From Sedimenticola thiotaurini (GTDB taxonomy: Bacteria; Pseudomonadota; Gammaproteobacteria; Chromatiales; Chromatiaceae): a stretch of DNA of 64,000 bases. The notes under the pieces are model-generated. The model ran no database searches. It was not told the DNA's origin and saw only the letters and a program-made list of their open reading frames with translations. This document shows, piece by piece, positions 36,323-41,980 of this stretch. Positions within the stretch are counted from its first letter, which is position 1. Each line of letters starts with the position of its first letter. Location: positions 744,001-808,000 of the forward strand of contig NZ_CP011412.1 in NCBI RefSeq assembly GCF_001007875.1. The letters run 5' to 3'. The position numbers and the translations under genes were made by a program.

Positions 36323-36928
36323 TCTTCAAACAATTCTTATTGATAAGCTTTTTTCTTTTCTGACACAGGCGGCCCCGCCATGTGTGTTGCCCGAATTTTC
36401 GGGTACGTCTTCAAAGCGTCGAATCCATGAATGGCTAAATAGTGCCGGGGAAAGCTGGACAGGCCGTTATGGATCTTAATCCTCACCACACCTGCCAAGC
36501 ACATGATTTGTGACGGATGAGCCCCTTTAAGTAAGCCGAATGATCTTAGCTTACTGTCGGGCTGTTTGATCAGAACAGATGGTAGGCCGGGTTGGTGTGC
36601 GGGAGTTGTTCTGGTTCCAGGCAACGGACGCCCTTAACCCGGCATCTGGTGATCTGCAGGTGAGGTCTCGATTCTGCAACTAAACGGATACAGCCATAGC
36701 CAACAAGTAGACAGAAGTTACTACCGCTACAGACAGCAGATGTAATCGGGACTCGGAACGGGACGGCCTGGTGTTCGGATTACATGCCATCAAGCTGCTA
36801 ATCTGATCACGAACCTGGTCTTGCATGATATAACCGTTTTTACATTTCATGGAGTGCACCTAACGAGTCAACTGTGAAGTTAATTACGCCTTCCTTGCCC
36901 TGGTATGTGAAACGTCAGGAACATCCTT
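36323..36928. other. Gene-poor stretch, possible degraded DNA
   Basis: About 600 bp with no convincing gene. A 95-codon open frame on the minus strand (36337-36624) has no SD and no family I recognise; its codon use is irregular. The stretch contains scattered stops in all frames and base use less regular than in the flanking genes, as in decayed DNA. I found no terminal repeats or transposase motifs. It precedes the paired LexA-like boxes. Confidence 0.4.
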
Positions 36929-36943
36929 GTTCTCTAATGGTTC
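36929..36943 (+). promoter_or_regulatory. LexA-like box 1 (GTTC-N7-GTTC)
   Basis: GTTC at 36929-36932 and GTTC at 36940-36943, a direct repeat with 11-bp period. It is the same arrangement as the box in front of lexA in this window. It lies just upstream of a TATAAT at 36944-36949. Confidence 0.6.
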
Positions 36944-36959
36944 TATAATAGCTCAACGA

Positions 36960-36974
36960 GAACGAAAAGAGAAC
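36960..36974 (-). promoter_or_regulatory. LexA-like box 2 (GAAC-N7-GAAC)
   Basis: GAAC at 36960-36963 and 36971-36974: the same direct repeat in the opposite orientation, just downstream of TATAAT at 36944-36949. Boxes 1 and 2 are arranged symmetrically about this -10-like element, so repressor on either would block a promoter here. Confidence 0.6.
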
Positions 36975-37062: not shown

Positions 37063-37164
37063 ATGGATTTCTGGCAGGGTTTAGACGATCTCCTATATAA
37101 TTCAGCTCCAGATGATCGGGACGTTATGACGCTATGCAGAACAGGAATATCGATGCTTGTGTAG
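37063..37164 (+). CDS. Possible 33-residue leader or small protein
   Basis: ATG at 37063 has a strong SD (GGAAGG, 4 nt away). The frame reads MDFWQGLDDLLYNS and ends at TAG 37162-37164. It overlaps the start of the following 65-codon gene in another frame, so it could be a translational leader. It has no membrane segment or known motif. It lies about 90 nt downstream of the paired LexA-like boxes. Existence is unproven. Confidence 0.3.
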   Translation: MDFWQGLDDLLYNSAPDDRDVMTLCRTGISMLV

Positions 37165-37331
37165 AGGCGATATGTAACAAGGGGTGTCGGGTGGTTCGGC
37201 ATGACATCGAATTGCTGGAACAGGGGCGGATTCTGCCGGAGCTTGTTCACTTGACTCCTCAGTCGCGTCAACAGGTGTTGGAAGAGCTTAAAAGCATCAT
37301 GTCGGTTTATGGCGATAGCTGCCGGGTTTAA
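37134..37331 (+). CDS. Small conserved-looking protein of unknown function
   Basis: 65 residues; the only possible start is ATG 37134 because TGA lies in frame at 37113. The sequence looks like a compact helical protein: CVEAICNKGCRVVRHDI (two cysteines), an acidic-hydrophobic middle and LTPQSRQQVLEELKSIMSVYG. It resembles small uncharacterised gammaproteobacterial proteins of this size, from memory only. A terminator-like hairpin follows at 37402. The paired LexA-like boxes about 160-200 nt upstream would make it a damage-response candidate. Confidence 0.6.
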   Translation: MQNRNIDACVEAICNKGCRVVRHDIELLEQGRILPELVHLTPQSRQQVLEELKSIMSVYGDSCRV

Positions 37332-40782: not shown

Positions 40783-41124
40783 GTGTCGATGGAACTGCGT
40801 ATTAAAAACAGCCAGCTCAAGGAGTTGGTTTATATCGCCCCCTCAAGCATCCACGGAACCGGCGTGTTCGCCAAACGGGCGTTGTCAAAGGGTGAATATA
40901 TCGGTACCTATCATGGGCCGGTTGCACGCCGGAATGGCACCTACGTGCTTTGGGTCTATGATCCTGATGATGAAGAGAATGCAGTTGGTCGCAGCGGTAA
41001 GAACTATCTGCGGTTCCTTAATCATCAGATACCGGGTAACGCTGAATTTGATGGTTTTGATCTGTACGCCAGGGTAAAAATCGGGAAGAACGAGGAGATT
41101 ACCTTTAACTATGAACCGGAGTAA
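40783..41124 (+). CDS. SET domain protein (putative lysine methyltransferase)
   Basis: 113 residues, a minimal SET domain: SSIHGTGVFAKRALSKGEYIG at the N-terminus, the NH motif in NYLRFLNHQIPGNAEF, and EEITFNYE at the end (usual ELxxDY). The insert between these is short. The post-SET cysteines are lacking, as in many bacterial SET proteins. SAM-dependent methylation of a protein lysine is the family activity; the substrate is unknown. GGGAG lies 5 nt before the GTG start. Same direction as the ArnD-like gene, 52 nt away. Confidence 0.85.
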   Translation: MSMELRIKNSQLKELVYIAPSSIHGTGVFAKRALSKGEYIGTYHGPVARRNGTYVLWVYDPDDEENAVGRSGKNYLRFLNHQIPGNAEFDGFDLYARVKIGKNEEITFNYEPE

Positions 41125-41161: not shown

Positions 41162-41770
41162 CTAGTGATAACGACGCATTTGTCCTACCAGTATACCCTG
41201 TATCTGCACTTGTTCCGGCGCATAGACCATGGGCGACATATTGGCATTAGCCGGGTGTAGCACCACACGGTCAGGTTTTTGTTCTATACGTTTGAGAGTC
41301 GCTTCGCTGCCATCCACCAGGGCAACCACAATCTCACCATTGCGTGCATGATCCCGTTGTTCGATGATGATCTGATCGCCGTCAAGAATGCCCTCTTCAA
41401 TCATCGAGTCACCCTTTACCTGAAGGACATAGCAGGGTCGGCTGGTGTGCAGAAAATCCGGAACCTGGACGGTTTCCCGTTGCTCAATCGCCTCAATTGG
41501 TTGACCTGCTGCAATGTAACCCAGAAACGGCAAGCCCTGATCTTCGTTCCTATCCGGGTTGGTCAGTCTTATACCCCGGCGGCGGTTATTCATCGGTTCT
41601 ATCAAGCCGGCATCTATCAGGGCCTGAATCTGTTTGTGTAACGATCCCTTGGAACTCAGTCCGAGTGCGTTGCAGAGTTCATCCAGCGTGGGGGGATGGG
41701 GAAACTTATCCAGATTTGTCTGGAGGTAGTCGTAAATTTCCTGCTGTCTGCGCGTTAAATGATCGTTCAT
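41162..41770 (-). CDS. lexA: SOS repressor LexA (divergent DNA-binding domain)
   Basis: 202 residues. N-terminal winged HTH (1-65) whose recognition region [18 protein letters not shown] differs clearly from the E. coli FRSPNAAEEHLKALARKG. The peptidase part is intact: cleavage bond A88-G89, catalytic S122 in VKGDSMIEEG and K160 in ATLKRIEQ. RecA-stimulated self-cleavage would relieve repression. A direct-repeat operator lies just upstream, overlapping the likely leader, so it is autoregulated. Preceded in the same direction by the RRM gene. Convergent with the SET gene. Confidence 0.93.
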   Translation of the reverse strand: MNDHLTRRQQEIYDYLQTNLDKFPHPPTLDELCNALGLSSKGSLHKQIQALIDAGLIEPMNNRRRGIRLTNPDRNEDQGLPFLGYIAAGQPIEAIEQRETVQVPDFLHTSRPCYVLQVKGDSMIEEGILDGDQIIIEQRDHARNGEIVVALVDGSEATLKRIEQKPDRVVLHPANANMSPMVYAPEQVQIQGILVGQMRRYH

Positions 41771-41782
41771 ACCTGACTCCCT

Positions 41783-41797
41783 GTTCTAGCTTCGTTC
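41783..41797 (-). promoter_or_regulatory. LexA-like operator of lexA (GAAC-N7-GAAC)
   Basis: On the minus strand GAAC-GAAGCTA-GAAC, 12 nt before the lexA start codon, directly downstream of a TATAAT at 41798-41803. A second, degenerate copy (GAAC-N7-AAAC on the plus strand) lies at 41814-41828. This direct repeat is the classic alphaproteobacterial LexA box, not the CTGT-N8-ACAG of E. coli. Confidence 0.65.
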
Positions 41798-41980
41798 TAT
41801 TATAGTGCAAAGAGAACCAATGGGAAACAGGTTGCGGCAAATTCTTGTGTGAAATGCTGGAAACCAATGTGGGAAGTGGCGTATGGGAGAGTGTGCTGCC
41901 ATTGACTATCAATAGCAGTGTATTCCGGCTTACTGCTTGTCGGAACTCAAGGCGGTGTAGCTGATCGCTTTATCCCGCTG

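Follow-up and report, generated by a model that had tools for sequence, protein, structure and literature searches.

A probable GTTC direct-repeat LexA box upstream of lexA and a small set of predicted SOS promoters in the gammaproteobacterium Sedimenticola thiotaurini

Introduction

The direct repeat GTTC-N7-GTTC is assigned to Alphaproteobacteria or to Caulobacter in passages of three papers (PMC8565304, PMC9578287, PMC3323433), one of which gives GTTCN7GTTC as the SOS box of Caulobacter crescentus (PMC9578287). Passages of the same papers also propose, as a general model, that the SOS network can be retaken by a second LexA that has diverged (PMC8565304), and mention that Acidobacterium capsulatum acquired an alphaproteobacterial lexA laterally (Mazon 2006, cited in PMC3323433). 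No report of GTTC-N7-GTTC in Gammaproteobacteria was recognised in the open-access literature, subscription papers lying mostly outside that scope.

Here we describe such a repeat at the lexA gene of Sedimenticola thiotaurini, in a 64-kb stretch of its genome, positions 744001-808000 of contig 1, that we call the window. Compared with the alphaproteobacterial system, the core repeat upstream of lexA is the same and both recognition helices carry H and R/K at positions 44/45, but the Sedimenticola LexA belongs to a separate clade, its helix reads SKGSLHK instead of SKSGIHR, and its half-site is GTTCT(C). E. coli-type LexA shares with it the protein architecture, the self-cleavage residues and, as predicted here, the targets lexA, recA and yebG, whereas operator, recognition helix and clade all differ. 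A non-canonical LexA has reportedly been described in Betaproteobacteria (Sideroxydans) by Sanchez-Alberola in 2015, with a box said to be the B. subtilis-type GAAC/GTTC palindrome; in both cases proteobacterial SOS genes would stand under an unrelated LexA and a different box. The LexA of lexA2-imuA-imuB-dnaE2 cassettes is a second LexA in the same bacterial class, but the Sedimenticola lexA is not beside imuA. The sequence comparisons reported below give good support to the prediction that LexA acts through the repeat. The operator is of a known type, but it occurs here with another LexA lineage and in another class; its half-site is slightly longer, the predicted regulon is small and partly new, and the distribution is wide.

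Results

The LexA protein and its promoter

The lexA gene (41162..41770, minus strand) holds the sole LexA_DNA_bind match in the genome, which comprises 3.96 Mb in two contigs. By domain architecture the protein is a member of the LexA family, with a DNA-binding domain (PF01726, 48 bits) fused to an S24 peptidase (PF00717, 103 bits) and a TIGR00498 score of 181 bits (cut-off, 111). It has the Ala-Gly cleavage site and the Ser/Lys dyad (IAAG, GDSM and TLKRI), and A84, G85, S119 and K156 (E. coli numbering) are each kept in 86 of the 87 members of its LexA group, referred to here as the Sedimenticola type. The nearest named LexA is that of Sedimenticola selenatireducens DSM 17993 (89%). An initial annotation of this DNA had pointed to a recognition helix differing from the E. 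coli type, which we confirm: the helix reads SSKGSLHKQ, and the group carries H (86/87) and K or R (87/87) at the positions aligned with E. coli E44/E45. Adjoining lexA is a stand-alone SET-domain protein of 113 aa (window 40783-41124, plus strand), a relative of which lies within the fetched lexA flanks at 16 of 49 loci (L035-L083).

Upstream of lexA, the same annotation had proposed a GAAC-N7-GAAC repeat (that is, GTTC-N7-GTTC) with a degenerate second copy, and both are present. Box 1 (41783..41797, plus strand; GTTCTAGCTTCGTTC, or GAACGAAGCTAGAAC read along lexA) lies 12 bases from the lexA start and ranks seventh in the weight-matrix scan described below, with a score of 21.5. Box 2 (41814..41828, minus strand; GAACCAATGGGAAAC, or GTTTCCCATTGGTTC read along lexA) is inverted with respect to box 1, contains one mismatch (AAAC for GAAC) in a degenerate outer half-site, and scores 12.0. 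Of 12 lexA promoters compared, most have the same degenerate GTTT as their outer half-site, and L039 has GTTC there. Between the two boxes is a putative -10 element (TATAAT; 41799..41804, minus strand), proposed from its match to the consensus, and box 1 lies immediately downstream of it. In the direction of lexA, the promoter therefore reads GTTTCCCATTGGTTC, then 16 bases with TATAAT, then GAACGAAGCTAGAAC, forming two direct repeats that face each other. Three other lexA promoters (L046, L055 and L056) show a related arrangement, GTTC-N7-GTTC-N7-GAAC, with the half-sites in one 11-base register and their direction turned mid-way.

The E. coli-type palindrome CTGT-N8-ACAG, which the annotation had described as absent, is indeed missing from a 190-base stretch that covers the lexA start and the DNA upstream of it. 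Across the 64-kb window, GTTC-N7-GTTC has six exact matches where 1.74 are expected, and one of 100 shuffles reached six. Because this enrichment is mild, the single lexA site is weak evidence by itself; it carries weight because it is conserved upstream of lexA in the same LexA group, which takes it beyond chance.

Box class and LexA class across genomes

We collected 228 LexA proteins, dropped three fragments and sorted the rest into groups according to their identity with the window's LexA (threshold, 54%), helix motifs and kinship. LexAs from the same phylum but not the same class were called alpha when they carried SKSG[IV]HRL, which we take to be the recognition helix motif of alphaproteobacterial LexA. 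Boxes were then counted in 203 distinct upstream regions of at least 100 bases from loci other than the window, with L282 placed in the E. coli type and L149 and L165 in LexA2.

The direct repeat was found upstream of lexA in 54 of 66 Sedimenticola-type regions, the remaining 12 having no exact box; including the window, the count is 55 of 67, as against a mean of 0.2 and a maximum of 1 in shuffles. It was also present in 43 of 62 regions from other non-E. coli-type gammaproteobacterial LexAs and in all 12 alpha regions, GTTC-N7-GTTC being the known alphaproteobacterial SOS box. It was found in none of 29 E. coli-type regions, neither of two from the LexA2 of imu cassettes, none of four from other LexAs of the phylum, and one of 28 from distant named LexAs (L085-L114, mostly other phyla, four being titled Gammaproteobacteria or Coxiellaceae). 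CTGT-N8-ACAG occurred in 21 of the 29 E. coli-type regions and in none from any other group, including 0 of 66 from the Sedimenticola type; the window's lexA lacks this operator too.

The box reported for the betaproteobacterial LexA fared no better, with GAAC-N4-GTTC (B. subtilis type) found in 0 of 67 Sedimenticola-type and 0 of 65 other-gamma-type lexA upstreams; both this pattern and GTAC-type boxes were rejected as the operator (0/67 in the Sedimenticola-type group). Within the GTTC groups the half-site itself differs. T follows GTTC in 95-97% of 65 Sedimenticola-type boxes, whereas the base is mixed in 15 alpha boxes, and the half-site extends to GTTCT in the Sedimenticola type and to GTTCTC in the other gamma type but not in the 15 alpha boxes. 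On the protein side, almost every member of the three GTTC groups has H and K/R instead of E44/E45. H44 alone is not predictive of a GTTC box, since it is common (26/29) in the distant named LexAs as well, which are mostly non-proteobacterial and mostly without the box.

Box-carrying promoters in the Sedimenticola thiotaurini genome

Six promoters carry the box, namely those of lexA, recA, imuA-imuB, yebG, an integron integrase and a small gene that we call OrfB, with seven exact boxes in all. At recA, the box GAACATCAGTAGAAC lies 15 bases ahead of the first possible start. The imuA-imuB box GTTCTCTATATGTTC lies 55 bases ahead of imuA and 79 ahead of a divergent gene; ImuA was assigned by NF033429 (219 bits; cut-off, 150), and imuB is located at 876 kb in the genome, compared with 785 kb for lexA. 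The gene yebG is an SOS gene in E. coli, and its box here, GTTCTATATATGTTC, is accompanied by a third, degenerate half-site that stays in the 11-base register of the other two; YebG scored 77 bits against PF07130 (cut-off, 27.5), and a stricter NCBIfam YebG model matched below its cut-off. In contrast, no GTTC-N7-GTTC was found within 300 bases upstream of uvrA (L314), recN (L312) or dinB (L032), even with one mismatch allowed, and these genes were rejected as LexA targets. The initial annotation had named recA, uvrA, imuB and recN as places to look for the box, a list of which recA and the imuA-imuB operon are borne out and uvrA and recN are not; the box at lexA is accordingly accompanied by boxes at other SOS genes.

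Direct repeats of 4+4 bases are common, and the boxes could in principle be chance repeats or sites of another regulator, with LexA using an undetected site. GTTC-N7-GTTC has 107 exact matches genome-wide, compared with 39 for the reversed pattern, and most of those examined lie inside genes: among 97 of the 107, 76 were inside reading frames picked by a simple script and 21 outside. The 76 are probably background, while seven of the 21 belong to the six promoters of interest. Two further matches (49172 and 49188 of the window, not among the 97) also lie inside a reading frame. A fuller consensus, GTTCTMTWTWTGTTC, gave 20 matches with up to two mismatches versus 28 for its reversed pattern, and only the four best (0-1 mismatch; imuA, yebG, intI and OrfB) are therefore informative.

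We also built a weight matrix from 98 boxes found upstream of lexA, recA and OrfB in other genomes, with this genome held out, and scanned it over 362,577 fetched and partly overlapping bases of the genome. The top seven sites were exactly the seven boxes of the six promoters (scores, 27.7 to 21.5). The next score, 17.6, belongs to a site beside recG and a small gene; below it come 16.4 and a pair of twin sites at 16.3. Because the scanned stretches were picked mainly by pattern matches, this is a ranking of candidates and not a whole-genome scan. Against a chance origin stand this held-out ranking, the presence of the box at lexA, recA, imuA, yebG and intI, its occurrence at 30 of 30 OrfB loci (below) and the covariation of box class with LexA class over the 203 upstream regions. 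Chance was rejected on conservation, held-out ranking and controls, and we consider that whole alternative, with another regulator included, extremely improbable.

Two of the lower-ranking sites deserve description. The eighth-best, GTTCTCTATAGGTTT at C1:2278742 (L244), lies between recG and a small divergent gene, and it is doubtful as a LexA box. The twin sites GTTCAATCTTCGTTC (C1:166523 and 169151; L008 and L009) are identical, have near-identical surroundings and are 2.6 kb apart, and no gene start was found near them; together with a site at 3335634, they fall in repetitive or low-coding DNA and were treated as background.

Among relatives, recA was matched in 37 of 39 genomes and 30 recA loci were fetched. 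The exact repeat was present at 10 of the 30, all in the Sedimenticola group and its near kin, and a one-mismatch form, AAAC-N7-GAAC, at eight from more distant relatives (L253, L254, L256, L259, L260, L261, L262 and L271). This form reads AAACAAAAAGAGAAC in seven of the eight, indicating a degenerate yet conserved version of the box. The remaining 12 loci, one of them truncated, had neither form. The box was absent from three Methylococcales recA loci (L272, L277 and L279), although their lexA has it, and also from three recA loci that could be read in genomes of the other GTTC type (L263, L276 and L278), which indicates that the regulon varies between groups. One recA locus (L275), from a genome with an additional LexA of the E. 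coli type, carried CTGT-N8-ACAG.

A putative small membrane protein behind a double box

OrfB (36680..36850, minus strand) was found via its box and encodes a 56-aa protein whose one hydrophobic segment is C-terminal (19 residues from residue 38, hydropathy 2.28). Its promoter holds box A (36960..36974, minus strand; GTTCTCTTTTCGTTC; score, 25.5) and box B (36929..36943, plus strand; GTTCTCTAATGGTTC; score, 26.5), which are inverted relative to each other with 16 bases between the inner half-sites. OrfB is kept in all six Sedimenticola relatives fetched (60-88% identity), with both boxes intact and differing spacers. It lies upstream of tex in all six; in five of them the fetched stretch extends far enough to show an HU-like gene on the opposite flank.

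When 210 genomes of the order were searched with an OrfB profile, 53 had a match (at E values up to 0.1, many being weak), and 30 loci were fetched. In the 220 bases upstream, exact GTTC-N7-GTTC occurred once or more at all 30 and twice at 24, compared with 0 of 30 over the same length downstream and a mean of 0.22 (maximum, 1) in shuffles; the E. coli box was found upstream at one of the 30. Inner spacing of the double boxes ranged from 16 to 26, which suggests two separately bound dimers. The proteins mostly share a Y-[IVL]-M-x-[DE]-Q-V start region. The window's OrfB had no match in Pfam, NCBIfam or PHROGs, six of its relatives gave a single sub-threshold Pfam match (E 0.0099), and searches of these three collections found no homologue of known function.

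On this pattern of conserved boxes, OrfB is predicted to be SOS-controlled, and its family, recognised from the box and nothing else, can be added to the candidate SOS protein families. DidA is an SOS-induced small membrane division inhibitor. Passages of PMC9578287 describe SidA and YneA as SOS-induced small membrane division inhibitors too. OrfB resembles all three in its short length, single membrane segment and SOS box, and they are likely to be its working analogues, but OrfB differs in having no match in the family collections above. Guessing from its size, membrane segment and predicted control, OrfB may be a small protein of the inner membrane that holds back cell division, or acts on the membrane in some other way, while repair is under way, an assignment that is plausible but falls somewhat short of probable.

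Two neighbouring reading frames were also inspected. A 65-aa frame between the OrfB promoter and tex (37134-37331, plus strand) is kept at 62-72% in six relatives and matched no family above cut-off in Pfam or NCBIfam. Another, at 36340-36624, was considered as SulA-like and rejected, with no supporting family in Pfam.

An integron integrase behind the same motif

The integron integrase was identified by TIGR02249 (453 bits; cut-off, 265), and its box, GTTCTATATTTGTTC, lies 32 bases upstream. In the parts of PMC3108266 (Cambray 2011) that describe a survey of intI promoters, covering 15 motifs, only the E. coli-type box is found, and Chromatiaceae are stated to lack LexA. The SOS-controlled integrases described there and intI here both have a LexA box a short way ahead of the start codon, but the box is of the E. 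coli type in the survey and GTTC-N7-GTTC here, in one genome and with regulation predicted from the motif. The integrase is thus a candidate for control by a LexA motif that the dedicated survey, as far as those parts of it go, did not find at intI.

The gene itself (C1:2525853-2527244; L414 from position 154) encodes 463 aa, the IntI core being preceded by about 150 additional residues. On the expected (left) side of intI, a low-coding region contains attC-like repeats of the form TAACGCC...TTGTTA, and a strict attC scan found none.

Proposed control by a single LexA

The boxes, their conservation, the LexA residues and the genes can be read directly from the DNA, and they point to binding, repression and induction: very probably, the boxes are operators of this bacterium's single LexA, governing lexA, recA, imuA-imuB, yebG, OrfB and the integron integrase. 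LexA would bind a direct repeat best written GTTCT-N6-GTTCT, with half-sites 11 bases apart, or about one helical turn. At lexA and OrfB, two boxes would face each other around the putative -10, and because they surround it, RNA polymerase would be blocked when LexA is bound. Upon DNA damage, RecA would be loaded and would trigger LexA self-cleavage at A84-G85 through the conserved Ser119/Lys156, and cleavage would release all six transcription units.

LexA lineage

In a midpoint-rooted tree of 105 LexA rows, whose bootstrap was not quite settled, the window's LexA falls within a gammaproteobacterial Sedimenticola-type clade of 27 rows (support, 100/98). The other gamma GTTC-type LexAs form a clade of 39 rows (100/99), except for L143 and L292, which fall with other LexAs of the phylum, and the two gamma GTTC clades join with 93/90. 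E. coli-type LexAs and LexA2 together make up one clade (100/100), and the alpha LexAs form another of eight rows (100/100; branch, 0.9), with the window's LexA outside it. The window's protein shares the GTTC-N7-GTTC operator with alphaproteobacterial LexAs but neither their clade nor their helix, with GS in place of SG at positions 41-42 of SKSG[IV]HRL. By sequence, it is placed within a deep gammaproteobacterial LexA lineage that carries the GTTC direct-repeat box.

These results bear on the suggestion, made in the initial annotation, of a changed or exchanged SOS regulon. The operator has changed, but neither the phylogeny nor the GTTCT half-site supports an exchange with Alphaproteobacteria. 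A fairly recent horizontal transfer of lexA and box from that class would account for the common core motif and for the H and basic residue at positions 44/45 in both, has a precedent in the Acidobacterium capsulatum case (cited in PMC3323433), and fits the placement of alpha and gamma GTTC LexAs on one side of the midpoint-rooted tree (90/87), together with three box-less LexAs of the phylum. A sister relation with the alpha LexAs would not by itself show recent transfer, and the separateness of the two clades and the near fixation of GTTCT here, where the next base is mixed in alpha, make such a transfer very unlikely. AU tests reject neither Sedimenticola type with alpha (p 0.47) nor Sedimenticola type with E. 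coli type (p 0.46).

Breadth of the GTTC type and genomes with two LexAs

In a class-wide draw of 274 genomes, 196 had a LexA-like match and 83 matched the window's LexA at E 1.5e-33 or better, a cut that is not clean, as the E. coli-type L148 and the LexA2 L149 score as well and at least one GTTC-type genome (L169) lies above it. About 79 of these 83 genomes were fetched, and all fell in the two gamma GTTC-type groups, none being E. coli type. Within the class, genomes with the GTTC type come from many family codes. With roughly 30% of sampled gammaproteobacterial genomes carrying a LexA nearer to the Sedimenticola type, scans for CTGT-N8-ACAG alone would miss those SOS regulons.

Of 41 genomes chosen for having either GTTC type, 28 had a single LexA domain and 13 had two or more; nine of the 13 had one E. 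coli-type and one GTTC-type copy, so cohabitation does happen. In these nine, the E. coli-type copy adjoins imuA at 7/9 loci, whereas no imuA match was found beside Sedimenticola-type lexA in flanks of 1.5-3 kb (loci L035-L142). Accordingly, we rejected the window's LexA as the LexA2 of an imuA-imuB-dnaE2 cassette, as it is not beside imuA and the imuA neighbour in two-LexA genomes is of the E. coli type.

How the GTTC-type LexA came to hold SOS genes admits two readings. One is a derived takeover, in which an ancestral LexA of the E. coli type was joined by a second, diverged one, either arisen in the lineage or brought in, and this second LexA retook the SOS genes once the first was lost. 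The nine genomes with both types are consistent with it, the general model is stated in passages of PMC8565304, and the AU test does not reject a grouping of the Sedimenticola and E. coli types. Since imuA adjoins the E. coli-type copy, however, the cassette-bound copy is not of the GTTC type, and the GTTC type is widely spread over the families of the class; a takeover is possible, but we lean against it. The other reading is that the GTTC direct-repeat LexA was the older main SOS repressor of Gammaproteobacteria, that the CTGT type came in afterwards, spreading next to imuA (lexA-imuA-imuB) before displacing it, and that Sedimenticola and many families kept the old switch, with OrfB as a new SOS membrane family and intI re-wired to the old operator. 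In this full form the scenario is speculative and rather unlikely. Genomes with two LexAs stand beside those with one, which offers a testable case of operator change in a core network. At one other-gamma-type lexA locus, a faint imuB match lies nearby.
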